Origin: a virus
Reading direction: 5' to 3' (one strand)
Virus record (IMG/VR): IMGVR_UViG_3300030451_004519
Location: 2,182 to 31,498 of that record
DNA length: 29,317 bases
The notes beneath the pieces are model-generated. The model did no database searches, had not been told where the DNA came from, and worked only from the letters and a program-made list of their open reading frames with translations. The stretch's first letter is position 1; each line of letters begins with the position of its first letter. Made by a program: the position numbers and the translations under genes. Shown one piece after another: positions 2,406-26,296 of the stretch.

Positions 2406-3830
2406 ATGAGTCAGAATTTAGATTACTGGTATGATGCCCAACTTAGAAGATACTTGCTTCAGTTTATGAGAATCTTTAGTGGATTCAAAGTAAGCGAAGG
2501 TCTTAGAGATGGTGCAACTCACTATAATAAAGTGCCTGTTAGATATGCTGATATGCAAAGAATGGTAGCACACATACTCACAAAAGGCAGTGAAAATTTA
2601 GTAAACAGTACTCCTTTTATATCTGCTAGTATTCAAAGTTTACTTATTGCTAGGGATAGAACACAAGATCCAATGCTTATAAGTAAAGTTCAAGTTGCAG
2701 AAAGACAATTTGACAGTAGTACAAATTCATATAAAACAGATAGTGGCTCACAAAGTTTTCCAGGAAACTTGTATAGCACAGACAGATATATGCCAGTACC
2801 ATATAACTTGACTATGAACATAGACATCTGGTCAGGTAACACGGATCAGAAATTGCAATTATTAGAACAAGTTCTAATTTTATTTAATCCAAGTATTCAA
2901 TTACAACAAAATCAAAATCCGTTGGACTGGACAAGTCTATATGAAGTTGAACTTACAGACATACAATGGAGTAATAGAAGTGTTCCTGCAGGTGTCGATG
3001 AAACAATTGACGTTGCAACATTAACATTTTTATTACCTATATGGTTAAGTCCTCCTGCAAAAGTTAAACGACAAAAAATTATTAATACAATTATTACAAA
3101 TATTTACGATACAAATAGTGTAGCAAACTTAGGTTATGATGAAGATGTTTATGATTTCTTTAGAACATTAGATGCTGATTTTGAATTACACACAATTAGT
3201 CCTAACAATTATCAAGTAGAAATTGTAGGCACAGAAGCAACACTATATAAAGATGGAACAACCAAAGCCAATTGGAATGATTTACTTGAAGTGCTGTCTC
3301 CACAAGGTAGTGGAGGTAGTTTAAGTAATACATCTATTAGTATAGATGACATACCTTTAACAACTGGAAGTACATTGCAATTAAATATTTCTAATGATGT
3401 AGACAACTCAACAAGTTTATTATCAGGAACAGTTTCTAGAAATGTTTTAGATTCTGGTAAATTAATATTTAACTTGGATGCTGACACACTACCGTCAACA
3501 ACACTTACAGACATCACACGGATAGTAGACCCAAGTGTAAACTATCCAGGCGACGGAACAATCGACGCCGCAACAACTGGACAAAGATACTTACTAACTA
3601 GTGAAATACGAGGTGACAACTGGGGCATTAATGCTGAAGCAGATGACATAATCGAGTATAACGGCACTGGTTGGGTAATATCATTTGATTCTTCAACTTC
3701 TGTAAACAAGGATACTGTTCATTATGTTAAAAACTTATACACCAATAAACAATTTAAATGGGAAAAAGAACAATGGACAAGCACTTACGAAGGAAAGTAC
3801 AATCCGGGCTTTTGGCGTCTCAACGTGTAG
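2406..3830 (+). CDS. 15: T4 gp15-like tail completion/sheath stabilizer protein
   Basis: A 474-residue protein. Its N-terminal ~250 residues show the gp15 pattern: RRYLLQFMRIFSGFKV, then KVPVRYADMQRM, then MNIDIWSGNTDQKLQLLEQVL and a IQWSN...DVATLTFLLPIWLSPP segment. gp15 caps the upper end of the contractile tail and joins it to the neck. It is longer than T4 gp15 (272 aa). The extra C-terminal region (YPGDGTID..GQRYLLTSEIRG..EGKYNPGFWRL) resembles the extension seen in marine cyanophage and pelagiphage gp15. It follows gp14 by one base, with AAGG upstream of its ATG as a ribosome site. The start of the NUDIX gene overlaps its 3' end. Confidence 0.85.
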   Translation: MSQNLDYWYDAQLRRYLLQFMRIFSGFKVSEGLRDGATHYNKVPVRYADMQRMVAHILTKGSENLVNSTPFISASIQSLLIARDRTQDPMLISKVQVAERQFDSSTNSYKTDSGSQSFPGNLYSTDRYMPVPYNLTMNIDIWSGNTDQKLQLLEQVLILFNPSIQLQQNQNPLDWTSLYEVELTDIQWSNRSVPAGVDETIDVATLTFLLPIWLSPPAKVKRQKIINTIITNIYDTNSVANLGYDEDVYDFFRTLDADFELHTISPNNYQVEIVGTEATLYKDGTTKANWNDLLEVLSPQGSGGSLSNTSISIDDIPLTTGSTLQLNISNDVDNSTSLLSGTVSRNVLDSGKLIFNLDADTLPSTTLTDITRIVDPSVNYPGDGTIDAATTGQRYLLTSEIRGDNWGINAEADDIIEYNGTGWVISFDSSTSVNKDTVHYVKNLYTNKQFKWEKEQWTSTYEGKYNPGFWRLNV

Positions 3831-4315
3831 ACACACAAAAAAGCATACTTGATACTTTAAATCCTTTAACAAATATTCGAAAGCACAAAGGTGTAAGTGC
3901 CGCAGGTGTTTTATTTTTATCTAAAGACACAGGCAGATGTTTATTTCAATTAAGAAACAGTGACAAACGACATAAAGATTGTTGGGGATTTTGGGGAGGC
4001 ATGATGGAAGGAAATGAAACTCCTTATGAATGTATCCAAAGAGAATTATCAGAAGAGATAGGTCTTGTACCAGAATTAAAAAAATTAAATCCAATAGATG
4101 TTTACCAAAGCAAAGATAAAAATTTTATGTACTACAGTTTTGTTTATGTAGTAGATGAAGAATTTATTCCTATATTAAATGACGAGAGTTCAGGTTATGC
4201 TTGGGTAAGGATAGGTAATTGGCCCAAACCTTTACATGAAGGTGCTAGAAACACATTAGGAAGGAACAAAGGTGTAGACAAACTACATACTATACTAGAT
4301 ATAAATTCTAAATAA
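3758..4315 (+). CDS. NUDIX hydrolase
   Basis: The 185-residue protein has a perfect NUDIX box, G-x5-E-x7-R-E-L-x-E-E-x-G-L, at residues 81-103 (GGMMEGNETPYECIQRELSE then EIGL). NUDIX enzymes hydrolyse nucleoside diphosphates linked to another moiety, using Mg2+ held by the box glutamates; likely substrates include oxidised nucleotides, nucleotide sugars or mRNA caps, but none can be chosen here. Its 5' end overlaps gp15 by 58-73 nt in another frame. An in-frame ATG at 3773, preceded by GGGAAAAAGA, is an equally good or better start. The long overlap suggests that it was placed behind gp15 and translated by coupling. T4 places terminase genes after gp15, so this position is a departure. Confidence 0.9.
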   Translation: MGKRTMDKHLRRKVQSGLLASQRVDTQKSILDTLNPLTNIRKHKGVSAAGVLFLSKDTGRCLFQLRNSDKRHKDCWGFWGGMMEGNETPYECIQRELSEEIGLVPELKKLNPIDVYQSKDKNFMYYSFVYVVDEEFIPILNDESSGYAWVRIGNWPKPLHEGARNTLGRNKGVDKLHTILDINSK

Positions 4316-4947: not shown

Positions 4948-6978
4948 TTATTTAGAAGTTTTTCTATCAACACCATCCCATTCACCTTCAGGCATTGGGC
5001 GACTAATTCTTTCTGCATATAAATCAGCAAGTGTATTATTCCATTTGTGTTCTCTGAGTATTGAGATTTGATGAGCACAATCACTCCACAACCTGTCTTG
5101 GTAAAAATCTACCATACGTTGTACAGTCCTTGCATACTTATGATTATCCAATATAGTGTAGATGCTGACAGGTTCTGTTTGTCCTTTTACAGCAACTTTG
5201 TCTAATAATACTGTGCCTTCGACACGTTGTATTTGTTTTAGTGTGTGTTCAGTAAACATAAAAAACACACCATATTCCTTAGTTTGTGCTTCTAATCTTG
5301 CGGCGAGGTTAACACTATCTCCGAGCACGGTATAGTCGAATCTCTGGTCACTTCCCATGTTACCAACAACAGCATCGCCAGTGTTAATACCGATACCAAT
5401 GTTGAGTTCAATGAGTCCTTGTTCACGTAGTTCCTTATTTAATTTTGCCAATGCTGGCTCCATAGCCCTTGCTGTATCAACGGCTTGTTGAGCATGGTCT
5501 TCTATATCTAACGGTGCTCCCCAAATTGCCATTAGAGCATCTCCAATATACTTGTCTATTGTTCCGTTCTTCTCCATAACTAAGTCTGTCATAGGTGTCA
5601 TGTATTTGTTAATTAGTTTGCCTAGTCCTTGTGGATCTGTTTTAAACTGTTCACTAATAGGAGTAAAGCCACGTATATCTGAAAACAAATATGTCATTGT
5701 TTTTGTTTCGCCACCTAACTGTAGCAGTTCTGGATTCTTTTGTAATTTTTTAACCATTGCTGGAGCAAGGTAATGTTCAAACTGTTTCTTAATTTGTTCA
5801 CGCAACTTAAACTGTATCCAAAAGTTATTGAAACTTGCTTGAGAAAATATTAAAAACGTTGCTAACACAGGAAATGTAGCATCAAATAAAACCAAATTAG
5901 CAGTATAAGAATGTACACTATAATATACAATTCCGCCCAAAATAGTAACTGTAGTTACTAATCCTGCCCATATAGGTAACTTATATATTGCAAGGGCAAC
6001 TAATATCATGCTCAACAAGGCGCCTAAGAGTTCATATAAAGCACTTAATTCATTTCGCTGTATGTTTGATCCATCTATAAAATTTTGTAGCATATGGCCC
6101 TGTATTTGTTGTGGATATAAGTTGCCACGTGGAGTTGGTACAGGATTTGCAATCCCTTCTGCTGTAACTCCTATAATAACAAATTTACCTGTAAGGTCTG
6201 GTAGGCTATTAAGGTCAGTATATTCTACTTCTTCAAACGTATTATTAAATCTTATAAATGCAGAACCGTCAGGTTGAGTAACAATAGGATCAAAAGGAGG
6301 TACTGCAAATTCTTGTATTCCAATTTCACTTGTCTTTAACATGTAACTAGGCTTCTGCGTAAACACCCTTAACATTTCAACAGCAAAACTAGGATAAATT
6401 TTATCACCTACTGTAATAGCAAGTGGGTATGTTCTTGTTTGATTGTCAGGTTGTGGTGCTGATGCTATTACACCTATGCCTTCTGCATGTTCTTCAATCG
6501 ATGGAATGTTTGTTACTAGATTGGGCCATTTTAGCAAAGATTGGGTCGGGTTTGAAGGTCCAATCGTCCCTGTGCCAATGTGAGGACCGGAACTCCGAAT
6601 TCCTTTTGAAGAGGGGGTCTGGGACAAAACTATCCCGTTTCCTTTGATCCAACTCGCTAGAATCTCGTCTCCTCCAAATCGATCCTTCTCTGGATACATG
6701 ATGTTGAACCCAATTATACCAGCATTCTTCTGTCTGATATCGTGTATCATCTGTGCATAATTCTGTCTCGGCCATGGATATTGTCCCCAATGTTGTAGGC
6801 TTTTTTCGCCAATGTTTATTATAGCAACTTCGTTGCTTTGTTTTACTTCATCAAATTGTTGTAAGTAATCGAATGTTTGCATTCGAAGACTTTGTAATGG
6901 TGTAGGGTCAGCAACTTTTAGTGCCGTAAGTAATAATATAGATATTGCTACGGCCCAGCCGCTGTATAACCATTTCAT
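4948..6978 (-). CDS. CHASE2-domain membrane adenylate cyclase (class III)
   Basis: A 676-residue sensor cyclase. The order is an N-terminal membrane helix (about 5-22), a periplasmic CHASE2 sensor domain (about 30-305), three membrane helices (about 310-380), and a class III catalytic domain (about 420-570). Catalytic residues are intact: metal-binding Asp434 (LFSDIRGFT) and Asp480 (YIGDALMAIW), substrate-binding Lys476, and Asn557/Arg561 (VNLAARLE). Thr550 (in YTVLG) replaces the usual adenine-specifying Asp, which is typical of class IIIb cyclases. It should convert ATP to cAMP in the cytoplasm in response to an external signal. The reading frame is open to an ATG at 7017, but that lies inside the terminator of the preceding gene and upstream of the late promoter, so I choose the ATG at 6978. 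Very unusual in a phage; the ~100 residues after the catalytic domain are unassigned. Confidence 0.93.
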   Translation of the reverse strand: MKWLYSGWAVAISILLLTALKVADPTPLQSLRMQTFDYLQQFDEVKQSNEVAIINIGEKSLQHWGQYPWPRQNYAQMIHDIRQKNAGIIGFNIMYPEKDRFGGDEILASWIKGNGIVLSQTPSSKGIRSSGPHIGTGTIGPSNPTQSLLKWPNLVTNIPSIEEHAEGIGVIASAPQPDNQTRTYPLAITVGDKIYPSFAVEMLRVFTQKPSYMLKTSEIGIQEFAVPPFDPIVTQPDGSAFIRFNNTFEEVEYTDLNSLPDLTGKFVIIGVTAEGIANPVPTPRGNLYPQQIQGHMLQNFIDGSNIQRNELSALYELLGALLSMILVALAIYKLPIWAGLVTTVTILGGIVYYSVHSYTANLVLFDATFPVLATFLIFSQASFNNFWIQFKLREQIKKQFEHYLAPAMVKKLQKNPELLQLGGETKTMTYLFSDIRGFTPISEQFKTDPQGLGKLINKYMTPMTDLVMEKNGTIDKYIGDALMAIWGAPLDIEDHAQQAVDTARAMEPALAKLNKELREQGLIELNIGIGINTGDAVVGNMGSDQRFDYTVLGDSVNLAARLEAQTKEYGVFFMFTEHTLKQIQRVEGTVLLDKVAVKGQTEPVSIYTILDNHKYARTVQRMVDFYQDRLWSDCAHQISILREHKWNNTLADLYAERISRPMPEGEWDGVDRKTSK

Positions 6979-6983
6979 AAAGA

Positions 6984-6991
6984 TATTTATC
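6984..6991 (-). promoter_or_regulatory. Late-type promoter GATAAATA before the cyclase
   Basis: GATAAATA (6991-6984) is followed by TCTTT and then the ATG at 6978. With T4 geometry the start point is the A of the ATG, giving a leaderless mRNA. A TTGACA lies 7 nt further upstream (7004-6999) but has no -10 box at the right distance. Confidence 0.7.
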
Positions 6992-7006
6992 GTATTTTTG
7001 TCAAGA

Positions 7007-7031
7007 AAAAGCGGCACATAGTACCGCTTTT
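7007..7031 (-). terminator. Rho-independent terminator after the lipoprotein gene
   Basis: AAAAGCGG (7031-7024 on the minus strand) pairs with CCGCTTTT (7014-7007) around a 9-nt loop, followed by more T. It lies 30 nt beyond the stop of the frameshifted product and just upstream of the cyclase promoter, so it separates the two units. Confidence 0.75.
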
Positions 7032-7060: not shown

Positions 7061-7171
7061 TTATTCGCACTCTTTTGGATTTTCTGAACAGTATTTCATT
7101 ATACTCTTAACAAGTATTTTGATATCTGCATCATCTATGCCATTCTTATCTGAATGGCTTATCCCTTTTTT
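7061..7171 (-). CDS. -1 frame extension of the lipoprotein gene (programmed frameshift product)
   Basis: Directly overlapping the end of the lipoprotein gene, the -1 frame is open for 34 codons (GISHSDKNGIDDADIKIL...CSENPKECE) and ends at TAA 7063-7061. It has no plausible start codon of its own except an internal ATG 12 codons from its end. The junction carries A AAA AAG in the lipoprotein frame (7171-7165), a 6-nt spacer and a perfect 7-bp hairpin. Frameshifting would give a protein of about 129 residues. The extension contains a D-x-N-G-x-x-D-x-x-D stretch reminiscent of a short calcium-binding loop, and two Cys near its end. The alternative is a homopolymer miscount of one A. Confidence 0.55.
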   Translation of the reverse strand, partial: KKGISHSDKNGIDDADIKILVKSIMKYCSENPKECE

Positions 7172-7183
7172 GCTTCGTTACCT
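7139..7183 (-). promoter_or_regulatory. -1 ribosomal frameshift signal
   Basis: Read on the minus strand: an SD-like AAGG ending at 7181; 9 nt; the slippery heptamer A AAA AAG (7171-7165) in phase with the lipoprotein codons GCA AAA AAG; 6 nt (GGATAA, containing the 0-frame stop); then GCCATTC (7158-7152), loop AGATAA, GAATGGC (7145-7139). This is the same arrangement as the dnaX-type signal of bacteria: slippery site, stem-loop and upstream internal SD. Confidence 0.65.
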
Positions 7184-7449
7184 TTTTCTTCGTCTTGCAA
7201 TTCGTCGGTTTGATTATCGATTTCTTCACTGACAGTTTCTATTACACCACTAGAGACTTTCGCCGCTGTTGCTGTAATATCTGACACATCTGTTAAGACT
7301 GCTGTACTAACTGTAGCAACACCTTTTACAGAACTATCAATTACACCTGTTGTGAAATCTTTCCCACCTTCAATAACTGCTCCAACTGAGGCACATGATG
7401 GTAGTAATACTAAACCAAGGACTCCAAGAAGTGAATACAATTTATTCAT
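7159..7449 (-). CDS. Small lipoprotein (0-frame product)
   Basis: A 96-residue precursor with a lipoprotein signal peptide: basic start, hydrophobic core and lipobox LLPSC (Cys19). The mature part is rich in Val, Thr, Ser and Ala (GVIDSSVKGVATVSTAVLTD) and looks amphipathic. It then ends in a very acidic, Glu-rich tail. Its size and make-up recall entericidin-like small lipoproteins or phage lysis lipoproteins, but I cannot assign it. The ATG has a clear CAGGAGAAG ribosome site and a 42-nt leader from the GATAAATA promoter at 7497-7504. The last codons form a -1 frameshift site, so a longer form probably exists too. A terminator follows. Confidence 0.85.
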   Translation of the reverse strand: MNKLYSLLGVLGLVLLPSCASVGAVIEGGKDFTTGVIDSSVKGVATVSTAVLTDVSDITATAAKVSSGVIETVSEEIDNQTDELQDEEKGNEAKKG

Positions 7450-7515: not shown

Positions 7516-7845
7516 TTATATTCTGTATTCGTGTATAGGGTCACCACCTAAACTATGTAGGTCATGATACCATAACTCTTGCAAAAGTAGTTTTCTTGTG
7601 GCTTCGTATTCTGTAGCATTGATTAATGCTATTAGATTATCTCTATTTGATTTTTCTACTTGATATGTTAATTCTATCCATTTATACAAAATATAAAATG
7701 TTGCAGGAACAAAAATTAAACCTATTGCAGTTTCTGGATAAAAATATGCAAATACTAAAAAGTGTAAACCAATTACAGTTGCTAGTTGAATATGTACAGA
7801 ACGTACATATTGCTGAATTCCGTTATTAACCTTTTCCTGCTTCAT
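7516..7845 (-). CDS. Small membrane protein, 109 aa
   Basis: A short basic N terminus is followed by two hydrophobic helices (around VHIQLATVIGLHFLVFAYFY and AIGLIFVPATFYILYKWI) and a charged C-terminal helix ending in HEYRI, so both ends are probably cytoplasmic. I do not recognise the family. The frame is open upstream to an ATG at 7875 and a TTG at 7896. The ATG at 7845 is preferred because the preceding 55-aa gene covers the upstream part and overlaps this start by 20 nt, pointing to coupled translation. It could belong to the lysis or membrane-remodelling functions, but nothing specific shows this. Confidence 0.65.
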   Translation of the reverse strand: MKQEKVNNGIQQYVRSVHIQLATVIGLHFLVFAYFYPETAIGLIFVPATFYILYKWIELTYQVEKSNRDNLIALINATEYEATRKLLLQELWYHDLHSLGGDPIHEYRI

Positions 7846-7993
7846 TAAAAATTTTTTCTTTGAACTCAGTGCCATGCCAATAACTATCCAATCCAATATC
7901 TACCATTAATGCAATTAATACTAAAGTCATAATTACACATAGGTAAAAATTAATAAACGCAGATATTTTCATCCACTTGATTAGATGTTTCAT
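7826..7993 (-). CDS. Small membrane protein, 55 aa
   Basis: A 55-codon gene starting MKHLIKWMKISAFINFYLCV, with one long hydrophobic helix (about residues 11-32) flanked by basic residues and a charged C terminus (HGTEFKEKIFNEAGKG). It is not a recognised family. The ATG has no ribosome site; it lies 6 nt after the TATAAT of an excellent sigma70 promoter, so the transcript should be leaderless. Its 3' end overlaps the next membrane-protein gene in a different frame. Support comes from the promoter geometry and overlap rather than homology. Confidence 0.65.
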   Translation of the reverse strand: MKHLIKWMKISAFINFYLCVIMTLVLIALMVDIGLDSYWHGTEFKEKIFNEAGKG

Positions 7994-8031: not shown

Positions 8032-8937
8032 TTAATCTTGCGTAATTGTTATAGAACATCCACCAGCAGTTTGGCATGTTTGATTAAGGTTGTAAGTTTG
8101 TGCTGTACCACTGTTTTGTGTTAAATTTAAAGTGGTCGGTTGTGATCCATACAAAGTAATATTGGCAGTATGAGCACCATTACCTTTTTGTACGCCACTA
8201 ATTTGACTGCCGTTTTGATAACTTTTATAGTTTACAGTTTTGTTTCCATCGTTAATTTGTTTCCACCAAATATCTTGATTGTTACCATATATCCATATAT
8301 TTGCAGTATGAAATCCTGGATTACTTGTGTTTCCATTTGTTTGATATCCAGCAATAACATTGTTGTCTCCATGATAGTCTAATATTACTTTATGTCCACC
8401 ATGCTCACTGCTATCGCCTTCGTTAAATGTTGTATCACTTATGTTGTTTAGTCCAACACCTTGACCCCATCTCATAAGATTGTTGTCTCCCCAAACGTGA
8501 AAACCTGCTTCTGAATATTGGCAACTTCCATCTTCTGTACATTTTTGTTTTATGTAAACATCATTGTCTACACCATCTATATCACCACAAAATGTTGCGT
8601 TTGGACAGTTTACTTTACCCCATGTACTAGTAAATCCAGCAAAATTATTTTGTCCTTCTTGTGCAATTTTTACTAGGTTACCATCACCTGATACTGAAAA
8701 TTCAACATCGTTATCTTCTCCTAGTTGTCCAATCCACATAGTTAAATTATCGACATTACCATATTGTAGTCCTAACTCCAAGTCAATGTGTTGCCCTTTA
8801 CCTTCTTGTAAAATTGTTAATTCTAAGTTGTCACCAACTTGGTCAATATGAACGTGGTTGTGTTCAGGTCCAGCAAATGCATCATAACTTGCTGTAGCAC
8901 AAAATATTGCTAATAATGTTCCTAATATATATTTCAT
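8032..8937 (-). CDS. Curlin-repeat protein B (secreted amyloid-like subunit)
   Basis: A 301-residue precursor with a signal peptide cleaved near ASYDAFA (residue 22). The mature protein is built of curlin-like strand-turn repeats with Q-x-G-x-x-N spacing, best seen at HIDQVGDNLELTILQEGKGQ, in DNLTMWIGQLGEDN, and in DGNLVKIAQEGQNN. Curlins such as CsgA/CsgB are exported through CsgG and form cross-beta fibres outside the cell. It is about twice as long as E. coli CsgA. It has three Cys pairs and ends in C-x5-C then SITITQD, an ending like those of the FecR-like protein and curlin A. Its ATG directly follows the FecR stop (TAGATG). Last gene of the operon; it could act as the nucleator or main subunit. 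Confidence 0.82.
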   Translation of the reverse strand: MKYILGTLLAIFCATASYDAFAGPEHNHVHIDQVGDNLELTILQEGKGQHIDLELGLQYGNVDNLTMWIGQLGEDNDVEFSVSGDGNLVKIAQEGQNNFAGFTSTWGKVNCPNATFCGDIDGVDNDVYIKQKCTEDGSCQYSEAGFHVWGDNNLMRWGQGVGLNNISDTTFNEGDSSEHGGHKVILDYHGDNNVIAGYQTNGNTSNPGFHTANIWIYGNNQDIWWKQINDGNKTVNYKSYQNGSQISGVQKGNGAHTANITLYGSQPTTLNLTQNSGTAQTYNLNQTCQTAGGCSITITQD

Positions 8938-10134
8938 CTAATCTACCTGTATGATTGTAATAAATGTTCCTTCACAATCATTTAAACATATTGTAGCATC
9001 TTTTAAATTACTATCTTCTACAAATATTTGGGCACTATTACCTGAATTTATTCTAACACTTACTGTATTTGTTACTTGTCTAAAAAAGAATAATTTACCA
9101 TCTTCTAAGACTGTGTTAAATTGTGTTTCAGGATCAAACCCTATTGCAGTACCTGTAATTTTATCTGCGGCTAATCTACCTTCAGATTCGCTACCACTAT
9201 CTCCACTATCTTCTTCTACACTTACTTCTTCTATTTCTTCAAGTAAGTCTTGTAAAAAATCAACGTCTAAAAAATTAATATCTAACGTTGAAAATTCTAA
9301 ATCTTCTGTTGTGTCTGCTAATACATCTGCTTCAATGGCATTAGCATCTAATCCGTCGAAGTCTAAGAGTCCAGCATCACCTTTTAATTGTTCTTGTTGT
9401 TCCTCTTTTGCTTCTACAATCTCTTCTGGCTCACTGACAATAAACATATTGTCTATCATATTCAAATCCAAATCTGCTAAAATAACAGGATTTGTTGGAG
9501 CCTGTTCATATGTACTAACCATAACAGCCTGAAAGGCTTCAGTTAATACTTGCACACCACCGTCATTTGTAATTGTTATACTACCCGATGGTCTGCAACC
9601 TTCCTCCAATTTTACTGTATCTGTACAGCCTGAGTCTGGTAATAGTATTACTAGACTTCTGCCTAACTCATCAACAGTAGTTGTAAAGTCAGTACCCCTA
9701 ATACCAATTGTGGCTGTAGGAGTTTGTACGACTATATTTTCCTTTGGCACCAATCCTAATCCACCAGTGGCAAAACGTGCCGTTCCTTGCACAAAATCTA
9801 ATGCCATCCTGCTTTTACTTGGATCAGGATCGTACACATAATCATTTATAATCATATATGTGTGTTCAGTTAAACTTACCTGTGTATCATCGACAAACTT
9901 TAATTTTAAACGACCGTTAACCGTTTCAACTTCGTCCATGCTTTGTATGTCTGTGTCTAGTTCTGCAATCAATCTTTCACCAGACGTTCTACTAATACTT
10001 CCGGGTGAGCCAACTTGCTCAAATACTCCGCCTATACTCTCATTGGCATAGGCGGAAATACTATATGTTGCACTAAACAGCAAAAATGTGTATAAGCAAA
10101 CTTTAGTCAGTTTGTCTGATACTAACCGAAGCAT
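8938..10134 (-). CDS. Secreted FecR-domain protein in the curli-like operon
   Basis: A 398-residue precursor with an N-terminal signal peptide (cleavage near residue 30, SISAYA). A FecR domain follows (about 35-200), with its hallmark TPTATIGIRGTDF at 138-150. Then comes a long acidic, low-complexity region (about 230-320) and a C-terminal beta segment ending CLNDCEGTFITIIQVD. Classical FecR spans the inner membrane and controls a sigma factor; here there is no cytoplasmic anti-sigma part and no sigma gene, so a periplasmic or exported structural role is more likely. The C-terminal Cys pair and QVD ending match those of both neighbouring curlins, suggesting the same export route. It overlaps the end of curlin A by about 32 nt. 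A GTG at 10140 is an alternative start. Confidence 0.83.
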   Translation of the reverse strand: MLRLVSDKLTKVCLYTFLLFSATYSISAYANESIGGVFEQVGSPGSISRTSGERLIAELDTDIQSMDEVETVNGRLKLKFVDDTQVSLTEHTYMIINDYVYDPDPSKSRMALDFVQGTARFATGGLGLVPKENIVVQTPTATIGIRGTDFTTTVDELGRSLVILLPDSGCTDTVKLEEGCRPSGSITITNDGGVQVLTEAFQAVMVSTYEQAPTNPVILADLDLNMIDNMFIVSEPEEIVEAKEEQQEQLKGDAGLLDFDGLDANAIEADVLADTTEDLEFSTLDINFLDVDFLQDLLEEIEEVSVEEDSGDSGSESEGRLAADKITGTAIGFDPETQFNTVLEDGKLFFFRQVTNTVSVRINSGNSAQIFVEDSNLKDATICLNDCEGTFITIIQVD

Positions 10135-10924
10135 TTTCACTATCTAAATCAACGTCAATTTTACCAGTACAGGCAGGAGTACACGATGCCGCATTACTTT
10201 GTAAAAATTGGAAATCACCATCTGAACCTACTAAAACAAATTTTAAGTAATGGTTAGAGTTACCAGTTTGATTTGATGTAATAGCATTATCGTCACCAGT
10301 AATGTTCATTTCCCAAGTTGCGGAACCGGCGTCAACCTTAACACCACTTTGTGAAAAAGCGGCAGTATTGTTCCAATCAGAACCAGGAGTACCACTCCAT
10401 GCTCTTGAGTTAGAAACAGCACTTCTAAAGTCGTTCCTGTCACCTAGTATTGTTAAATCCATATTGAGGTTGTCTGCGGCATAGTTACCACCAATATCTA
10501 CATCAAAAATGTTTGTATCACCTTGAACATTCCAAAGCATGTCAACATTATCTGCACTACCAGTTGCACCTATGTTTAAATCTAATGAATTAGAATCTCC
10601 TAAAAAGTAGAAATCCCATACAGTTGATCCAGAACCGTCTCCAGTCCATGCACCAAATATTTCATTACCATCACCGTCTTGAATGATATCAATAATCAAG
10701 TTAGATCCTGTAATAACTAAATCGCTACCATCAGAAGCATCACCTGATAATTTGTTACCACTACCAGCCTGTAATATAGTCAAAGTCAAATTATCACCTT
10801 GTTGGTCTAACAAAACTTCGTTATCGTCAGCACCTAAGGCAGGAGCAAAAATTCCAAGTCCTAGGCCCATAACAGCGAAGACATTGATTGCAAAATTTCT
10901 AAAGAAATTATTTTTAGTCTTCAT
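10103..10924 (-). CDS. Curlin-repeat protein A (secreted amyloid-like subunit)
   Basis: A 273-residue precursor with a signal peptide (cleavage near APALG, residue 31) and degenerate curlin repeats: VLLDQQGDNLTLTILQAGSG, then IIDIIQDGDGNEI, GDSNSLDL, GDTNIFDV, GDRNDF and GDDNAITSNQTGNSN. It is rich in Asn, Asp, Gly and Ser, and starts like curlin B (DQxGDNLxLTILQxGxG), so the two are paralogues. It ends C-x3-C, a spacer, then SVSIRQTD. The ATG at 10924 has an excellent GGAG site 6-7 nt upstream and overlaps the csgG stop by 11 nt; an upstream ATG at 10936 has no ribosome site. The product should pass through the CsgG pore encoded just before it. Confidence 0.82.
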   Translation of the reverse strand: MKTKNNFFRNFAINVFAVMGLGLGIFAPALGADDNEVLLDQQGDNLTLTILQAGSGNKLSGDASDGSDLVITGSNLIIDIIQDGDGNEIFGAWTGDGSGSTVWDFYFLGDSNSLDLNIGATGSADNVDMLWNVQGDTNIFDVDIGGNYAADNLNMDLTILGDRNDFRSAVSNSRAWSGTPGSDWNNTAAFSQSGVKVDAGSATWEMNITGDDNAITSNQTGNSNHYLKFVLVGSDGDFQFLQSNAASCTPACTGKIDVDLDSENASVSIRQTD

Positions 10925-11894
10925 TATTTTCTCCATTATTCTTTAAGAGCATTTTCTCCCAAAGTTTTTTATCGGCTTTGATGTCCTCTGGATCTATGTC
11001 TACTTTCATCCATGTTGCCTGTTCATCAGGAGAGAGTTCTTGAACTTCCCAGCCTTCCGGATAAACAATTTTCCAGTAACCCCTTTCATCGCCTTGTTGT
11101 ATCAATGCCAATACTGCGGCTTCAATAGCCGAACGTACTGCCCAAGTTACACTTTCATTCTCTGTCATACCACTTTCAAGTTCAAGAAGTTTTGTATCCA
11201 TATCTAAAAATCTAAACACATCGCCTCCTACACCTGTACTCAAAATGGTTTTGTATGTCTGTACGTTGAGTAACACTTCGCCAGTGAGTGTGCTTATGGC
11301 TCTCAGTGATACAACAACACTATCTCTTCGATATTGGTTTGTAGTTCCAATACCGAGATATCTTGCACCGTTACCGCCAGTCTCGATATTAGTATCATAA
11401 CCTATGATGCCTCCCTCTAATATCATGCCTGCGAATAACAATGGTTGGACTCCTTCTGCCGGTGCTTCTTCTGTGGCAAACTGTTCGCGAGTACTACGAA
11501 CAATTTGTCTTTCCCGGACAAGGTGGTCTAAGCCTACTCCTCTCTCTACGACTCTGAACCATGTGCCTTTAGGATTTTCTTTGGCACCTGCGGCTTTGAG
11601 AGAGTCAATTAATAAATCTTTTGCACCTTGTGTAACTGCGGTGCTGAAACTTGCAACTCCATCTGAACTTACTCTTTGTCCAGTTAAATCTGCAAAGTCA
11701 TAAACTGCAACCACTGGCATAACTTCAGCCGGTGGTAAGTTTCTTAATTTTTTATATGTGGGTAATTCTATAAATTGTGGTTCTTCTATACACTCAAGGA
11801 AATTTGAACCACAGGCTTTGTCACCAGGTATGGAAATACTGGCGCATCCGCTAATTAGCAAAGCAAATATTACTGCTATCAATCCTTGTTTCAA
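10914..11894 (-). CDS. csgG: CsgG-like outer-membrane curli secretion pore lipoprotein
   Basis: A 326-residue lipoprotein that follows E. coli CsgG along its length: lipobox LLISGC (Cys17), LPPAEVMPVVAVYDFADLTG, SFSTAVTQGAKDLLIDSLK, VVERGVGLDHLVRERQIVRS, LFAGMILEGGIIGYDTNI, GGNGARYLGIG, and the transmembrane-hairpin region up to KTILSTGVGGDVFRFLD. CsgG forms a nonameric channel in the outer membrane that exports curlins. It is about 50 residues longer than CsgG, with an acidic extra C-terminal tail and an inserted Cys-x7-Cys after the lipobox. The only possible start is TTG at 11894, since an in-frame stop lies four codons upstream. It starts 4 nt after the csgF stop and overlaps curlin A at its end. 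Confidence 0.95.
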   Translation of the reverse strand: MKQGLIAVIFALLISGCASISIPGDKACGSNFLECIEEPQFIELPTYKKLRNLPPAEVMPVVAVYDFADLTGQRVSSDGVASFSTAVTQGAKDLLIDSLKAAGAKENPKGTWFRVVERGVGLDHLVRERQIVRSTREQFATEEAPAEGVQPLLFAGMILEGGIIGYDTNIETGGNGARYLGIGTTNQYRRDSVVVSLRAISTLTGEVLLNVQTYKTILSTGVGGDVFRFLDMDTKLLELESGMTENESVTWAVRSAIEAAVLALIQQGDERGYWKIVYPEGWEVQELSPDEQATWMKVDIDPEDIKADKKLWEKMLLKNNGENNED

Positions 11895-11898
11895 ATTT

Positions 11899-12387
11899 TT
11901 ACCCGCCTAATGTTCCGATTCCGATAGGTATTTCTATTTCCGTAATTGTTCCATCTGCGTCAACAATAGTCAGTTTTATATATTCTATGCCGTCTACTGT
12001 AATTACCTGGTATGAGACGTTACTGTCTTCAATAGTAAATGCACCTTCGGTAGAATTAGTACAAGTTGGTACTTCTGCAGGATTACAAAACATACTATCA
12101 ACTAATCCTTTAGAAATTTGTGAATAGATCCTACTCTCCAAATTTCTAATAAATTTATTAATAGTGCTGTTAGATTCTGCTCTTTCAGCCGCCCTTAAAG
12201 CCGCTTCAATATCATCTCTTATTTTATCTTTTCTACTCTTCTCCTGATTTTCGATTGTTAAATAATGAGCTCCAGTTCCTATTCCACTAAAACTAGGGTT
12301 CTTAAATTTATGTGTAAGTTTGTCAGCAGATGCTGTCATACTGCCAAATGCAAACATTACAACTAAAAAATAATTTAAAATTTTCAT
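11899..12387 (-). CDS. csgF: CsgF-like curli assembly factor
   Basis: A 162-residue precursor with a signal peptide (cleavage near TASA, residue 21). The mature N terminus LTHKFKNPSFSG...HYL matches the CsgF segment (TFQFRNPNFGG in E. coli) that inserts into the CsgG pore and forms its second constriction. The middle is helical, and the C terminus ends in beta strands with a Cys-x7-Cys (FCNPAEVPTC) not present in E. coli CsgF. CsgF caps the pore and helps nucleate fibres at the surface. Its ATG overlaps the stop of the upstream small gene (ATGA), and csgG follows by 4 nt, so pore and cap are made together. Confidence 0.85.
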   Translation of the reverse strand: MKILNYFLVVMFAFGSMTASADKLTHKFKNPSFSGIGTGAHYLTIENQEKSRKDKIRDDIEAALRAAERAESNSTINKFIRNLESRIYSQISKGLVDSMFCNPAEVPTCTNSTEGAFTIEDSNVSYQVITVDGIEYIKLTIVDADGTITEIEIPIGIGTLGG

Positions 12388-12686
12388 TTCTTTTTCTTTT
12401 CAGCCTGCTCTTTTTCAGCAAGGGCCTCCTTTTCTTCTGCGTCCTGCAAAATTTCTTGTCGTGTTCTATATTCTAAAACTACGTCTACTTTCTGTTGCAA
12501 ACGAATTAAGTCTTGATCCAACATTCTTGTTTGGTCTATTACTCTAATAAGTGCCATATGCATTTTACCTAATGCGGGTTTTATTTCACTATTAATATAT
12601 TTCCATACATAGTAAATAAAGTACCCTAAGCCAACACAGGCAACGACTGGAAATCCATATTGAGAGATTAATTGTGCTACGTCCAT
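12384..12686 (-). CDS. Small membrane-anchored coiled-coil protein (paralogue 2)
   Basis: A 100-residue protein with one N-terminal membrane helix (QYGFPVVACVGLGYFIYYVW), then a charged, probably coiled-coil helix and a Lys/Glu-rich tail ending in KKKK. It is a paralogue of the gene just upstream: both begin with a short polar stretch, then GFP, a Gly/Ala-rich helix and GYFI. The fold plan resembles BhlA/YvrJ-type small phage proteins (holin-like), but no function is shown. The start overlaps the upstream stop (TAATG) with a strong AAGGAGAG site, and its stop overlaps the csgF ATG, so it belongs to the same coupled operon as the pore. Confidence 0.75.
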   Translation of the reverse strand: MDVAQLISQYGFPVVACVGLGYFIYYVWKYINSEIKPALGKMHMALIRVIDQTRMLDQDLIRLQQKVDVVLEYRTRQEILQDAEEKEALAEKEQAEKKKK

Positions 12687-12982
12687 TAATCTCTCCTTAC
12701 ATCGAGTTTTCCGTCCTCAATAAAGTTTTCTGCCCTGGCTACTCGTTCTATATCAGGTCTTAATTCCAAAGCAGAACTTACTAACATATCGATTTTAATC
12801 ATCTCATTGCTCATTGTTCTTGCTCTATTTTCTAATGATTCACAAAACTTAGTCAAAGTTTCGACCTGACCGACGACACCGGCCATTAATTGCTTAATTA
12901 TAATAAAGATAAAATAACCCATTACTATCGCTCCGGCAATAGGAAATCCTACCTCTGCTATTAATTGAAATACTTCGTTCAT
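12686..12982 (-). CDS. Small membrane-anchored coiled-coil protein (paralogue 1)
   Basis: A 98-residue protein: MNEVFQLIAEVGFPIAGAIV leads into a single membrane helix ending GYFIFIIIKQL, followed by a long helical region with regular hydrophobic spacing (LTKFCESLENRARTMSNEM). First gene of the curli-like operon. The frame also offers a GTG at 12988; the ATG at 12982 is chosen because it matches the start of its paralogue. A holin-like or membrane-scaffold role is possible (BhlA/YvrJ-like plan). Its coupling to csgF points instead to a partner of the secretion pore at the inner membrane. It follows a GATAAATA promoter with a leader of about 59 nt. Confidence 0.72.
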   Translation of the reverse strand: MNEVFQLIAEVGFPIAGAIVMGYFIFIIIKQLMAGVVGQVETLTKFCESLENRARTMSNEMIKIDMLVSSALELRPDIERVARAENFIEDGKLDVRRD

Positions 12983-13046
12983 TCGCACACTCTGTTTGTT
13001 ATATTTTTTATATGTAGTGTGATGTCTGTCTGTTACTCTACGCAGT

Positions 13047-13054
13047 TATTTATC
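13047..13054 (-). promoter_or_regulatory. Late-type promoter GATAAATA for the curli-like operon
   Basis: GATAAATA (13054-13047) followed by ACTGCG. The predicted start is near 13041, 59 nt before the first gene at 12982. It is the only good promoter seen for the seven-gene operon and faces away from a plus-strand GATAAATA at 13096. Confidence 0.75.
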
Positions 13055-13532: not shown

Positions 13533-16500
13533 TTACATCATATTTACTAATACTTCAATAATACCTTCGCCTGCATCTAAAGAACCAACTGCTTTACCAA
13601 TTATTCTACCTGGTTTTGCATCATTGTCTGCTTTAGCATGTCCTTTAACACCTGCACTTACTAACAAGTCACCTTTAACAACAGGACCAACCACTTTACA
13701 TGGTACTCTTCCTGTTAATGCAACATATTGTCCTTCGCTACCTGCGTTCATCATGTATGCTGGATCTGTTGATATAACACCTGCTACTCTGTGGTCTGCT
13801 TCTGTTTCACATGCACATATTTCTTTTTCTCCACCGAAACATACAACTGTGCCTGCTTCAAGTTCTTCATTGCTTTCGTATTTCTCAGCCAAATCCGCAT
13901 ATTGCGCCGATGTTGCTGTACCCTGAAAAGTAACTGCATATACTTCGTTATATCTGTTACTGCTACTACCTAAGTCAATACTGTTATCTGCACTTGGAGT
14001 TATTGTGCCACTATGTGTATCAGCGGCATCGCTTCTCAAGAAAGAAGTACTGTTTATACCATCTATTGTGCCTGCGTCAACTTCTAATGCGTTTATAAAT
14101 GATGCTGTAACTCTGGCATCAATAGCCGAGTTTGCTCTAGCAACTGTATAATATAAACTTGAACCTTCTGATAAATCACCAGTGTCAAATGCACCCATGT
14201 TTACCGACAATGTCGTACCACTTATAGTGATACCAGTACCTGCATCTAAGAATGCTGTACTACCTGCACTATCGTCCCAGAATAAAATTCTATCGTCATC
14301 TGGATCTGATAAACTTTCAAGTCCTAAATGACTAAGTGCTAAACTTACTGCACCACTTGAACCACCGCCAGTTAAACCAGTTCCTGCTGTAACACTTTCA
14401 ATATCACCAGCATCGTTAGTGAAACTAAATTCACCAGTTGAACTGTTATAACTTAGGTCTCCGCCTGCACTAAACAATCCTCTAACTGTTGAGTTATCAA
14501 GTGATAATGTAACACCACCTGATGTGCCACCACCTGATAGACCTGATCCTGCTGTAACACCTGTGATGTCACCAACATTAGTTGTAAAACCTGAATCGTT
14601 ACTAAATGCACTTAATCCAATTTCTGAAATTAGTTTACGTCTTTGTGAGCCATTATCTAGTAATACAAGTTCATCTTCTGAACTGTTTACTGCGGCTGTC
14701 ATATCTGTTAGTTCACTAAGGTCAACATCTACTTGGTCTGCTTGTACATCTAGCAATGCACCTGCTCCAACATTAAGTGTAACACCACCTGATGTGCCAC
14801 CTCCTGTTAAACCATCTCCAGCAGTAACGCCTGTAATGTCACCAACGTTAGTTGTGAATCCACTGTCATTGTTAAATGCACTAAGATTTATTTCACTAAT
14901 AAGTTTTCTTCTATCATCACCATTATCAAGCAAAATAAGTTCAGTATCTGAACTACTAACAGCATCTGTCATATCTGTCAGTGTACTCATATCAAGATTT
15001 ATTGTGACTGCACCTGAACTGCCGCCTCCTGATAATCCTGTTCCTGCTGTAACACTTTCTATGTCACCTGCGTCATTAGTAAAACTAATTACACCTGTTG
15101 ATGAATTATAACTTAAATCACCTGCAACACTAATTGCCGCTCTGGCTCTTGCAGTAGTGTGATATAAGTTACTTGAACCTTCTGAAAGACTGTCTGTGTC
15201 AGCCGCCGCTATTCTGGCATCTGCTCTTGCGTTTGTAAAGAATAAATTTGTTGATCCTTCTGTAATACCGTCGGAATCTTCGATAAGTTTTTTATAATTT
15301 GTTCCGTCGTTTGTAAATTCCCATTTATCATCTGTTTCATTATATCTAAAAAATACATCTGCACTTGATCCTCTATCAACTTGTAAACCTGCGTTTTCTG
15401 ATGGAGCACCACTTGTTCCGTAATTTAATGTGATAATATTATCTTCTAAATAAAGTGTTTCTGTATTTACAGTTGTTTGCGTTCCATTTACAGTTAAGTT
15501 ACCTGATAGTATTATGTCGTTTTGAAATGTTTTAGCACCGTTAATAGTTTGTGTTCCTGTAGTTCTAACTACTGTACTATCTACTGCTATTGCTCCTGAT
15601 GTAACATCTATACCTGAACCACCACTTACATATCCATCTATTACTGACCTACCTCTTGCAGTTGTGTGATATAAGTTAGTTGAACCTTCACTTAAATTGT
15701 CTGTATCAAAACTACCTAGTGATACTGTTAAATCAATCGCTCCGTCACCTGAGTCATCATATGATGCACTTATACCAGTGTGTGAGCCATTGGTGGCAAT
15801 CTGAGCACCTGCAATATCTTGAACTCTTTCTGTTGTATGGAAAAGGTTACTTGACCCTTCTGTGATATCATCTGAATCACCACTTAATTCACTAAGTGCA
15901 TCTTTGCCTGCTACTTGTGAGTCAACGTATGCCTTTGTTGCCGCATCTGTACTTGCACTTGGTGTACCTAAATTATTAATGTAATTACTGTTCAAGTTAA
16001 GGTTTGAACCCATTGTCAAACCACCTGTACCAGTTAATGTTTGTCCGCTATCTACTGTAATACCTGATTGTAAATTGATTACACCAGTACCACTTGCGTT
16101 TAATTCTATGTCACCTGAACCTGAAGTTATAATTCCTACGTTTTGGTTTGCGTTTGCACTAAATTGAATAGTACCTGAACTGTCACTTAATACTTGTTGT
16201 CCATTAACGTATAATGAACCTGGGCCAATATATACATCTTTCCACACACTTGTTGCACTACCTAGTGAATATGTGTTGTTTGCACTTGGTTCAAAGTTTG
16301 CTGTGAAACCTGTACCACTTGCTGTTTTATCAAAAAATGCATCGTTTACTGTTAAAGTAACTGCACCAGAAGTGCCTCCACCAGACAAACCATTGCCTGC
16401 TGTTACACCTGTAATGTCTCCTGATTCTAATTCTGAATATTTTGCTAGTCTATGTCCACCTGCTGTTGAACCATCGTGGACTCTAATGGTATCTAAATCT

Positions 16501-16586
16501 GTATCGACGGTAATCTCACCTACTAGTCCTGTGAATGAACTATGTTGGGCAGTTGTACCTCTTCTCCATTGGATTGCTGTTGCCAT
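13533..16586 (-). CDS. Repetitive tail-fibre / receptor-binding-type protein, 1017 aa
   Basis: The N terminus (WRRGTTAQHSSFTGLVGE...RVHDGSTAGGHRLA) is the short beta domain often found at the start of marine-phage fibre proteins. The shaft carries five copies of a unit like GDITGVTAGNGLSGGGTSG and five of a unit like DNLSEGSTNLYHTTARGR. The C-terminal ~200 residues start at SGTITPSADNSIDLGSSSNR, continue through QYADLAEKY and end in a domain with VAGVISTDPAYMMNAG and ALTGRVPCKVVGPVVKGDLL. That domain is shared with the next gene upstream and typical of marine T4-like fibres. Likely a trimeric fibre or fibre-associated structural protein that meets the host. A clear AGGAAG site and a leader of about 85 nt with a hairpin precede it. 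Confidence 0.8.
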   Translation of the reverse strand: MATAIQWRRGTTAQHSSFTGLVGEITVDTDLDTIRVHDGSTAGGHRLAKYSELESGDITGVTAGNGLSGGGTSGAVTLTVNDAFFDKTASGTGFTANFEPSANNTYSLGSATSVWKDVYIGPGSLYVNGQQVLSDSSGTIQFSANANQNVGIITSGSGDIELNASGTGVINLQSGITVDSGQTLTGTGGLTMGSNLNLNSNYINNLGTPSASTDAATKAYVDSQVAGKDALSELSGDSDDITEGSSNLFHTTERVQDIAGAQIATNGSHTGISASYDDSGDGAIDLTVSLGSFDTDNLSEGSTNLYHTTARGRSVIDGYVSGGSGIDVTSGAIAVDSTVVRTTGTQTINGAKTFQNDIILSGNLTVNGTQTTVNTETLYLEDNIITLNYGTSGAPSENAGLQVDRGSSADVFFRYNETDDKWEFTNDGTNYKKLIEDSDGITEGSTNLFFTNARADARIAAADTDSLSEGSSNLYHTTARARAAISVAGDLSYNSSTGVISFTNDAGDIESVTAGTGLSGGGSSGAVTINLDMSTLTDMTDAVSSSDTELILLDNGDDRRKLISEINLSAFNNDSGFTTNVGDITGVTAGDGLTGGGTSGGVTLNVGAGALLDVQADQVDVDLSELTDMTAAVNSSEDELVLLDNGSQRRKLISEIGLSAFSNDSGFTTNVGDITGVTAGSGLSGGGTSGGVTLSLDNSTVRGLFSAGGDLSYNSSTGEFSFTNDAGDIESVTAGTGLTGGGSSGAVSLALSHLGLESLSDPDDDRILFWDDSAGSTAFLDAGTGITISGTTLSVNMGAFDTGDLSEGSSLYYTVARANSAIDARVTASFINALEVDAGTIDGINSTSFLRSDAADTHSGTITPSADNSIDLGSSSNRYNEVYAVTFQGTATSAQYADLAEKYESNEELEAGTVVCFGGEKEICACETEADHRVAGVISTDPAYMMNAGSEGQYVALTGRVPCKVVGPVVKGDLLVSAGVKGHAKADNDAKPGRIIGKAVGSLDAGEGIIEVLVNMM
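13884..14388. repeat. Fibre 3' module shared with 17056-17985 (copy 1)
   Basis: Two blocks closely match the other fibre gene at DNA level. Block 13884-14044 matches 17056-17216 at a constant 3172-bp offset with few changes. Block 14186-14388 matches 17781-17985 at an offset of about 3595 bp. They encode the ADTHSGTITP...AQYADLAE region and the SLSDPDDDRILFWDDSAGST region. Confidence 0.85.
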
Positions 16587-16689: not shown

Positions 16690-19600
16690 TTACTTGATAA
16701 GTGCTTCTACAACGCCTGTAGTGCTGGTTAAGTTTTCACTTATAGCAATACCTATTGCACTTGCACCTGCATGGTATCCGTGGAATGGAGCCGCTTTAGC
16801 ATGACCAGGAGTACTACTTGCAATCAGCACATCTCCTTTTCTAACAGGACCTGTAACTTTTACAGGTACTCGACCTTTAAGTGCAACTGTTACAACATTG
16901 TCACCTTCTAGTCCTGCATTCATTAAGTATGCTGGGTCGGTACTAACAACACCTGCTATTGCTGGACTATTTTCTTTAGTTACTTCTGTAACTTCAGCAC
17001 TTCCGCCTATAACAACTACTGTACCTGCATCGTAAGGTTTGTCTGCAACATAGTTCTCTGCCAAGTCCGCATATTGAGCCGCTGTTGCTGTACCTTGGAA
17101 TGTTACTGCATAAACTTCGTTATATCTATTACTGCTACTACCTAAGTCTATGCTATTATCTGCGTTTGGAGTGATTGTGCCACTATGTGTATCTGCCGCA
17201 TCGCTTCTCAAGAATGAACTAGCATGTAAACTATCAACTGTATCTGCATCTACACTCAAAGCATCAACAAAACTGTTTGTTACTCTTGCATCTATGGCAC
17301 TATTTGCTCTAGCAACTGTGTAATATAAATTAGTTGAACCTTCACTTAAATTATCTGTGTCAGCAGTTACAAAGTCTCCTGTAACTTCTAAGTTACCTGT
17401 AACTTTTGCACCACCGTCTACAGTTTCTAATGTAACATTATTGTTATAGTATATTGATTGTCCTGCACCTGAGTTAGTTGCTATACTTGTTTTTGTACCA
17501 TTTGCATTTGTAATATAAGTTGTACCAGAACGTATGAATATACTTCCTGTACCAACATCTGTGATAAAACTGTTATTACCATCGTGGTATATTTCTAAAT
17601 CTGGTCCATCACCAAATAATGCTTTTTCATTATCACCATATAAAATATTGTGACCGTTAATGTCTAAGTTACCACCTAGTTGTGGAGTTGTATCTTCTGA
17701 TAGATTGTTAATACTAATTGCTTGAACTCTTGCGTCTGTATAATATAAATTAGTTGAGCCTTCTGATAAATTATCGGTGTCAAATGCACCCATGTTCACT
17801 GACTGAGTTGAGCCACTTATCTGTAAGCCTGTTCCCATATCTAGGAATGCAGTACTGCCTGCACTATCATCCCAAAATATAATTCTATCATCATCTGGGT
17901 CTGATAAACTTTCAAGTCCTAAATGGCTAAGTGCTAAACTAACCGCACCACTTGAACCACCACCTGATAATCCTGTACCAGCAGTAACACCTGTAATGTC
18001 ACCAACGTTAGTTGTAAAGCCGGAATCATTATTAAATATACTTAGACCAATTTCGTTTGCCGCTTTTCTTTTCTCGCCAGTTCCACTATCAAGTATAATG
18101 AACTCATCAGTGTTATCCATTGTGCCTGTCATGTCATCGAGTTCACTAAAGTCTAAGTCTAAAGTAACTGTGCCTGCAACACCTCCGCCTGATAAACCAT
18201 TACCAGCAGTAACACCTGTTACTGTACCACCAATTGCAGTTACGTCTTTGAAAGTTATTGCACCATTACCGTCTGTACTTAATACCTGATTATTTGTACC
18301 ATCTGATGTTGGTAATGTGTATGCTCCTGCAATAGTAACATTACCAGGAGATATATTACCATCATAATCTAGTATGGCGGCATTTGCTCTTGCTGTTGTA
18401 TAGTATAAGTTATCACCTTCTGTAATATCAGTTGTGGTTAAACTTTCGCTAACTGTAATAGTTGCGTTTGCGTCATCATAAACTACATTTATATTACCAG
18501 AGCCTGCTAATATACTACCAACTCTATCGTCAATGTTTTCATTTGGTACTGTAAATGTTAATGTGCCTGCGGCATCATCATATGTTTTAACAATGTTTAC
18601 ACCTGCAACAATTAAGTTTGCAACTCTATCATCTACACGTTCGTCTGTGTAATATAAACTTGAACCTTCAGTTAAATTATCTGTAGTATTATTTCCTAAA
18701 GCAACATTTGCCTGTGCTTGTACTTCACTGTTAGTTAGAGTAATTTCATTAGCACTTGCAGTAATACCATATCCGCCTACAACATTTAATGTTGCATCAC
18801 CTGATGTGCCACCGCCTGTTAAACCGTCTCCTGCAATAACACCTGTAATATCACCTATATTATCTGCATCAATTGTAAATGAATTTGCGGCATCATCATA
18901 TGTTACTGTGATGTTTGCACCACCAACTACAAATCCTCCACCTATTCTATCTTCTAGTGCTTCGTTGAAGTCACTAACTTGTGATGCAGTAATACTAATT
19001 GCTTGTTGGCTAGCCGCTGTTAATTGTCCTTGAGCATTGACAGTAAATGTAGGTGTTTGTGATGCTGTACCATAAGTTGAAGCAGTTACACCTGTATTTG
19101 AAATTTCAATATCATTTGCATTTGCAGTTATACCTGTACCACCAACTATATCTAATGTTACGTCTCCTGCTGTTCCGCCACCTGTTAAACCTGCACCTGC
19201 TGTGACACCTGTGATGTCACCTGCTAGGTCGGCGTCTAATGTTAATGTGCCTGCGGCATCATCATACGTTGCAGTAACATTTGCTCCACCTACAATTAAA
19301 CTTGCTACTCTGTCGTCTACTCTTTCGTTTGTAAAATATTGATTTGTTCCTTCTGTAATATCATCAGTTGTTAAGGTTTGAGTTAAAACACCTGTAGAGT
19401 TATTATATCCTAAATTTGCACTACCTGAACTAATGGCACCTCTTGCCACTGATGTAACATGACTGTCATCTATTGCAAGACTTATAACATTACTTGCATT
19501 TATGCTGTCAGTAATACCATCTCCTACTGAGAGTTGATGCATAAACGTTGTGCTACCTGATGCACTTGCAAGTTGATATTCACCTGAACCGTCACCTAAA

Positions 19601-23546: not shown

Positions 23547-23556
23547 TTTGTTTCTC

Positions 23557-24663: not shown

Positions 24664-24672
24664 AGTAGTCTC

Positions 24673-25299: not shown

Positions 25300-25324
25300 C
25301 GTTAAAAACTCCTAGTAAACTCAA

Positions 25325-26125: not shown

Positions 26126-26231
26126 TATGAGCTCCTAATATTAATATATAAGTTATTGTATATCTACACATTCGTGGACATATACATAATATAATGTATG
26201 TTTACTTATTAACAGATGTGTTTTTGTGATT

Positions 26232-26255
26232 AAAACAGGCTATTTTGGCTGTTTT
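26232..26255 (-). terminator. Weak terminator-like hairpin
   Basis: AAAACAG (26232-26238) pairs with CTGTTTT (26249-26255) around a 10-nt loop; a T4 run follows on the minus strand and T7 on the plus strand. It lies 42 bp after the SGNH-like gene. The 170-bp gap 26126-26296 holds otherwise only AT-rich sequence with a small ATACAT/ATGTAT palindrome and the ribosome site of the acidic core gene; no clear promoter is seen. Confidence 0.5.
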
Positions 26256-26296
26256 TTTGAGTATCTTTGTGATATGTGAAAGGTTTTTGTATGCTT

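Follow-up and report, generated by a model that had tools for sequence, protein, structure and literature searches.

A candidate curli-type secretion module in viral DNA of a probable jumbo T4-like lineage

In a 29,317-nucleotide stretch of DNA from a marine bacterial virus (IMG/VR record IMGVR_UViG_3300030451_004519, positions 2,182 to 31,498; hereafter the window), a curli-like gene set runs on the minus strand from position 12988 to 8032. It encodes, in order, two small membrane proteins (TM1 and TM2), CsgF, CsgG, a curlin-like protein (curlin 1), a FecR-domain protein and a second curlin-like protein (curlin 2). The explanation that we favor, and hold to be reasonably probable, is that the phage uses these genes as a curli-type (type VIII) secretion module to place curlin fibers on the infected cell. 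The first-pass annotation of this DNA had proposed a complete curli-like export operon, and family matches confirm its coordinates and gene identities: homologs of CsgG and CsgF, two curlin-repeat proteins (with weaker matches than those of CsgG and CsgF), a secreted FecR-domain protein, and two membrane/coiled-coil proteins that proved to be paralogs. Its statement that all genes are coupled by overlaps holds for TM1/TM2, TM2/CsgF, CsgG/curlin 1 and curlin 1/FecR, whereas CsgF and CsgG are separated by 4 nt and the FecR-domain and curlin 2 genes abut. Its broader interpretation also survives with respect to the pore, the two curlin-like cargoes, the late-type element and the conserved core, but not the view that the set is richer than anything reported, as a 2022 paper had already described all of it, with FecR, both curlins and the cyclase included (PMC9599517).

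The identities of CsgG and CsgF are unambiguous at the sequence level. CsgG (10914..11894), an outer-membrane pore lipoprotein with the lipobox LISGC, matches PF03783 (E = 1e-45) and aligns over 11-276 with E. coli CsgG structures (E = 5e-43). CsgF (11899..12387) matches PF10614 (E = 3e-13) and has a signal peptide followed by the pore-inserting F-x-[NS]-P-S-F peptide; the motif F.[NS]P.[FY] is present in 76 of 77 CsgF homologs. Together, the two proteins are predicted to make an outer-membrane pore.

The assignment of the two curlins (CsgA/B-like cargo proteins, each with a signal peptide) is weak but real. Curlin 1 (10103..10936) matches the Curlin_rpt model with an E value of 2.8e-4, barely past the Pfam cut-off, and curlin 2 (8032..8937) with 2.5e-3, under it; curlin 2 also matches the NCBIfam models CsgB (E = 8e-8) and CsgA (E = 4e-5). 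We nevertheless judge both to be real curlins because the QxGxxN and PhixPhixQ curlin motifs occur in each above the level of shuffled sequences, because of the CsgB and CsgA matches, because the two proteins are related to each other in a profile-profile comparison (probability 99.3, E = 4e-20), and because the AlphaFold model of curlin 1 is all-beta, with a predicted local distance difference test score (pLDDT) of 75.8 and a predicted template modeling score (pTM) of 0.70. The cargo had been expected to model as beta-solenoids; modeling was run on curlin 1 alone, and a solenoid was obtained. Its top structural match is a beta-helix (SufD, Z = 17.5). A Foldseek search with this model returned no single significant relative, VIA-align found similarity to beta-helices only, and the CsgA structure gave a weak profile match (E = 0.046).

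The gene between the two curlins (8938..10140) encodes the secreted FecR-domain protein, which matches PF04773 with an E value of 1e-9; this domain was detected in all 37 members of the family. The predicted structure begins with a signal-peptide-like helix and has two beta domains, one at approximately 33-210 and the other at the C-terminus (327-398), joined by an acidic linker that is disordered. Residues 66-237 resemble the PupR cell-surface signaling domain (Z = 15.4), and the start of the first beta domain resembles 5ix9 (Z = 9.6, 74 of 76 residues, root-mean-square deviation 2.1), a domain for anchoring at the cell surface that was also the sole match of the sequence profile against the PDB (E = 0.022). 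The domain 5ix9 comes from the ice adhesin of Marinomonas primoryensis, of which it is the retention region. Published work labels this protein an iron-citrate sigma regulator of the FecR type. On the one hand, the FecR periplasmic domain is indeed present. On the other hand, the signal-peptide-like helix replaces the anti-sigma region: the N-terminus has no cytoplasmic anti-sigma part with a transmembrane helix, and no second Pfam domain was found in the 37 members. On this evidence, an iron-sensing regulator of sigma factors is not what the protein looks like; it resembles domains that dock at pores and surfaces and may instead be a partner of the pore or fiber.

The last 10 residues of the FecR-domain protein point in the same direction. 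The PhixPhixQ motif is found there in all 45 distinct sequences of the phage homologs (background 3.6%). The more distant copies of the cultured phages HTVC008M and Melnitz also have it; a related protein from Hyphomonas does not. All 41 curlin 2 proteins also end in this motif, which never ends CsgG, the cyclase or TM1/TM2. The terminal strand motif is all that the curlins share with the C-terminal domain of the FecR-domain protein; we do not claim common descent, because a profile comparison detected no homology between them (probability below 1%).

Comparison of CsgG/CsgF neighborhoods in viral genomes, which the first-pass annotation had suggested, revealed the same arrangement throughout. 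A CsgG search of viral contigs produced 80 loci with the near-invariant order TM1-TM2-CsgF-CsgG-curlin 1-FecR-curlin 2-cyclase as far as the contigs reach, and the same operon is found in HTVC008M and Melnitz. The ratios of nonsynonymous to synonymous substitution rates (dN/dS) against the closest relative are 0.036 for TM1, 0.045 for TM2, 0.148 for CsgF, 0.113 for CsgG, 0.126 for curlin 1, 0.113 for the FecR-domain protein, 0.089 for curlin 2 and 0.228 for the cyclase, and the core genes are under purifying selection. Because the cargo is as constrained as the pore, readings that involve the pore alone are disfavored. The same data dispose of the explanation that phage and bacterial DNA were joined in a chimeric assembly, a danger raised at the outset given that csg genes are usually bacterial: the operon recurs together with the same flanking virion genes in independent contigs, and it is present in the cultured HTVC008M and Melnitz. 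We consider this explanation refuted, its probability being negligible.

Two side observations from these searches concern sequence records. Some short contigs carrying the phage-type operon with TM1/TM2 come from bins assigned to Saprospirales, Sphingobacteriales, Planctomycetaceae, Rhodobacteraceae and the SAR11 family; they are probably mis-binned phage contigs. A 1.5-kb record labeled Salmonella phage (OR851715.1) encodes a CsgG that is 42% identical to phage CsgG and looks like a stray fragment.

TM1 (12686..12988) and TM2 (12384..12686) are paralogs of 100 amino acids each with 24% identity, and in each a single membrane segment at the N-terminus is combined with a coiled coil. Both match phrog_18771 (E = 6e-27 and 3e-26, respectively). 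The genes upstream of CsgF in the published module were labeled histidine kinases (PMC9599517). Equating TM1/TM2 with these genes by position and size, we rule out the kinase label: the proteins are only about 100 amino acids long, and no HisKA or HATPase domain was found by Pfam in 17 family members at E values up to 1. The pair is tightly linked to the pore genes. A search with TM2 only yielded 80 loci, in 79 of which csgF or csgG adjoins, the remaining one stopping at a contig edge; among 50,697 phage records, TM2 homologs were found only in six HTVC008M and Melnitz records, all with CsgG. This strict linkage, together with a late-type element upstream of the operon, would also suit a role in lysis timing or membrane opening, in which TM1/TM2 are holin-like, the CsgG-CsgF pore opens at the end of infection and the curlins are secondary; such a role was proposed for the Melnitz CsgGF (PMC9004378). 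TM2 does match the holin family phrog_4898 (E = 1e-6), as do 7 of 17 TM family members below 1e-3. However, this weak match covers residues 2-36, the 35-residue membrane segment alone, and where a locus is intact, the pore almost always comes with both curlins and FecR, which are equally constrained; we therefore consider such a role an unlikely explanation. A match of the TM proteins to YvrJ in Pfam was marginal (0.013).

The late-type element is GATAAATA, found on the minus strand at 13047..13054 (ATAAATA at 13047-13053), approximately 60 nt upstream of the operon. The late promoter of T4 is TATAAATA. The window contains 10 copies of ATAAATA, a count that shows no excess over chance; only their placement is nonrandom, as 8 of the 10 are followed within 130 nt by the start of a gene on their own strand (p ~5e-9), and zones of this kind make up 5.7% of the sequence. 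GATAAATA also precedes the portal gene (29089), both tail-fiber genes (16677 and 22322) and a lipoprotein gene (7497). This agrees with the earlier suggestion that the operon and the virion genes have a late-type element in common, and because the element is common to the operon, portal and tail-fiber genes, we infer that the operon is expressed late, together with virion genes. The shared element, the shared strand and the position of the operon directly downstream of the tail-fiber genes might also be taken to mean that the curlins or the FecR-domain protein decorate the virion. This is very improbable, since all cargo proteins carry Sec signal peptides and would leave the cytoplasm, the site of virion assembly; moreover, the HTVC008M operon does not adjoin head genes.

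The core unit spans 8032 to 12988, but the unit as a whole is larger than first stated: the same strand continues from 7993 to 4948 with three small open reading frames and a cyclase gene, although this link is looser than the links within the core. The small reading frames encode a membrane protein of 55 amino acids (m2, 7826..7993), a membrane protein of approximately 125 amino acids (m1, 7516..7893) and the lipoprotein mentioned above (7159..7449; 96 amino acids, lipobox LLPSC), which has its own element; only some relatives have m1, and the same is true of m2. The cyclase gene (4948..7017) encodes a CHASE2 sensor (E = 7e-38) fused to a class III adenylate cyclase domain (Guanylate_cyc, E = 2.5e-20), and its catalytic residues D447, K489, D493, N570 and R574 are conserved in 30-31 of 31 homologs. 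Searches for a cyclic-nucleotide-binding domain were negative in eight genomes or records (two complete phages among them) and in 138 of 147 SAR11-family genomes; for the window, the SAR11 result matters only if its host resembles SAR11. In the SAR11 family, class III cyclases and CsgG are almost absent, and the two clear double positives carry the phage operon.

Several observations weigh against a curli-type secretion module. The family matches of both curlins are weak; TM1/TM2 and the cyclase are foreign to classical curli systems; other residues stand at the positions of Y51 and N55 of the E. coli pore, the equivalent of F56 alone being retained; CsgE (PF10627) was detected in none of eight genomes or records, of which two were complete phages, while the E. 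coli control was detected; and cultures infected with Melnitz showed no clumping (PMC9004378). The lack of a CsgE gate and the altered constriction are also what one would expect of an ungated two-way pore that takes up nutrients or cofactors during infection, as put forward previously (PMC7029224, PMC9599517). An uptake pore, however, would have no need for CsgF, two curlins, FecR or TM1/TM2, yet all of these are conserved, and we regard it as quite doubtful. As for CsgE, it is absent from many bacterial curli loci as well and is reported to be non-essential (PMC7029224); for this reason, the assignment to type VIII secretion stands despite its absence.

If the module is indeed of the curli type, it would be synthesized late, with virion genes. 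The two curlin-like beta-solenoid proteins would cross the inner membrane by the Sec system, leave through the CsgG-CsgF pore and form their assemblies on the outside of the infected cell. The FecR-domain protein would be a periplasmic or pore-associated partner of the fiber or pore rather than an iron regulator, the CHASE2-cyclase would sense the periplasm and respond with cyclic AMP, and the TM1/TM2 pair might serve as an inner-membrane partner, one that is missing from the sole bacterial operon found. Most plausibly, the phage would benefit by holding infected and uninfected cells together or by shielding the cell surface. These parts could be joined in one reading, an envelope-spanning, signal-coupled curli machine unlike the bacterial one. 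In it, the FecR-domain protein would dock at the CsgG pore or fiber via its beta domain, which is like a retention module and like PupR, and via its curlin-type C-terminal strand, replace the missing CsgE/CsgB and signal to the CHASE2-cyclase; the phage-specific TM1/TM2 would be a dedicated inner-membrane part; and the module would have spread among podophages, T4-like myophages and jumbo phages. Taken as a whole, this combination is tentative and rather unlikely to be correct in every part.

The carrier of the module here probably belongs to a jumbo T4-like lineage and would be a giant virus, although its own record is 31 kb. The head genes for portal, protease, scaffold and capsid (22401-29066) are closest to those of PA5oct, a Pseudomonas jumbo phage, and far from those of pelagimyophages. 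PA5oct-type jumbo phages (286 kb) share 69% identity with the capsid protein of the window, and HTVC008M 37%; the portal protein is 55% identical to PA5oct and approximately 36% to HTVC008M. With capsid and portal at 36-40% to HTVC008M and Melnitz, a pelagiphage virion backbone (Kyanoviridae or HTVC023P-type) is ruled out. A marine contig of 250,519 bp has portal, protease, scaffold, capsid, tail fibers and curli module in the same order as the window, and its single capsid gene is 86% identical to that of the window. The text search, within the literature library that it covered, produced no prior report of jumbo phages with curli.

Elsewhere in the window, the tail-fiber-like proteins encoded at 13533-16586 and 16690-22284 are very long (1017 and 1864 amino acids) and have near-identical repeated blocks and a C-terminal block in common, suggesting recombination between them. 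Tandem genes for tRNA-Ala(TGC) (1115-1190) and tRNA-Ser(GCT) (1217-1306) lie on the minus strand; the equivalent regions in the loci of five relatives yielded no tRNAs. A Nudix hydrolase gene (3758-4315) and a tail-sheath-like gene (2406-3830) overlap, at the 3' end of the latter.

Should viruses control amyloid on plankton, they would alter bacterial sticking, DNA exchange and encounters with new viruses. The labels published for several parts of the module look wrong, and the corrections matter to anyone testing TM1/TM2 as membrane proteins or the FecR-domain protein as a structural or gating partner; the cyclase needs weighing against a SAR11 family that mostly lacks cyclic-nucleotide-binding domains. 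What is new here is the jumbo-type carrier, TM1/TM2 that are not kinases, the re-reading of the FecR-domain protein and an operon in Hyphomonas; the carrier and this operon are concrete material for tracing the origin of the module.

Among known systems, CsgG and CsgF were described in pelagimyophages in 2020 (PMC7029224), and the whole module, together with the small upstream genes, both curlins, FecR and the cyclase, followed in 2022, when Wittmers described it from podo- and myo-pelagiphages and saw it expressed in ocean metatranscriptomes (PMC9599517). A T4-like virus with a predicted Bacteroidetes host also has curli genes (PMC7198788). The pelagiphage module of HTVC023P-type podophages and pelagimyophages has the gene content and order of the window and no CsgE: one or two small upstream genes, CsgF, CsgG, CsgA/B, FecR, a second CsgA/B and adenylate cyclase (PMC9599517, PMC7029224). 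The window differs from it in its virion lineage, in three extra small open reading frames before the cyclase and in upstream genes that are not histidine kinases. Methylophilales phage Melnitz has homologs of CsgG, CsgF and TM1/TM2; its description covers the pore alone and states that cargo is missing (PMC9004378), but two curlin-repeat proteins, FecR and cyclase are annotated in its GenBank record (locus L082, 9554-13718), and our profiles also show the cargo.

In the BiofilmReg operon of Burkholderia, as in the window, a gene for a secreted FecR-domain protein adjoins a CHASE2 sensor gene; unlike in the window, the FecR protein has LysM, the CHASE2 protein is a histidine kinase and there are no curli genes (PMC5192318). 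In three Caulobacterales loci, a FecR-domain gene immediately precedes the gene for a related cyclase, also without curli genes, and a search for curli operons with FecR in other Caulobacterales showed a close FecR homolog in only one of 299 genomes. The E. coli csg system has CsgG, CsgF and curlin subunits in common with the window but also has CsgE, CsgC and CsgD, and its operon is without FecR and cyclase (PMC9599517). A matching bacterial arrangement is that of Hyphomonas sp. TMED17, where CsgF, CsgG, a curlin, FecR and a CHASE2-cyclase are encoded in the same order as in the window, among ordinary chromosomal genes of a 705-kb contig; no match to TM1/TM2 was found at this locus. In the CsgG tree, the Hyphomonas sequence falls among phage sequences on a long branch, and because an all-phage clade is not rejected (approximately unbiased test, p-AU 0.31), the tree fits Hyphomonas as either donor or recipient. 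This operon, from one genome bin, contradicts the statement that bacterial curli operons exclude FecR and cyclase.

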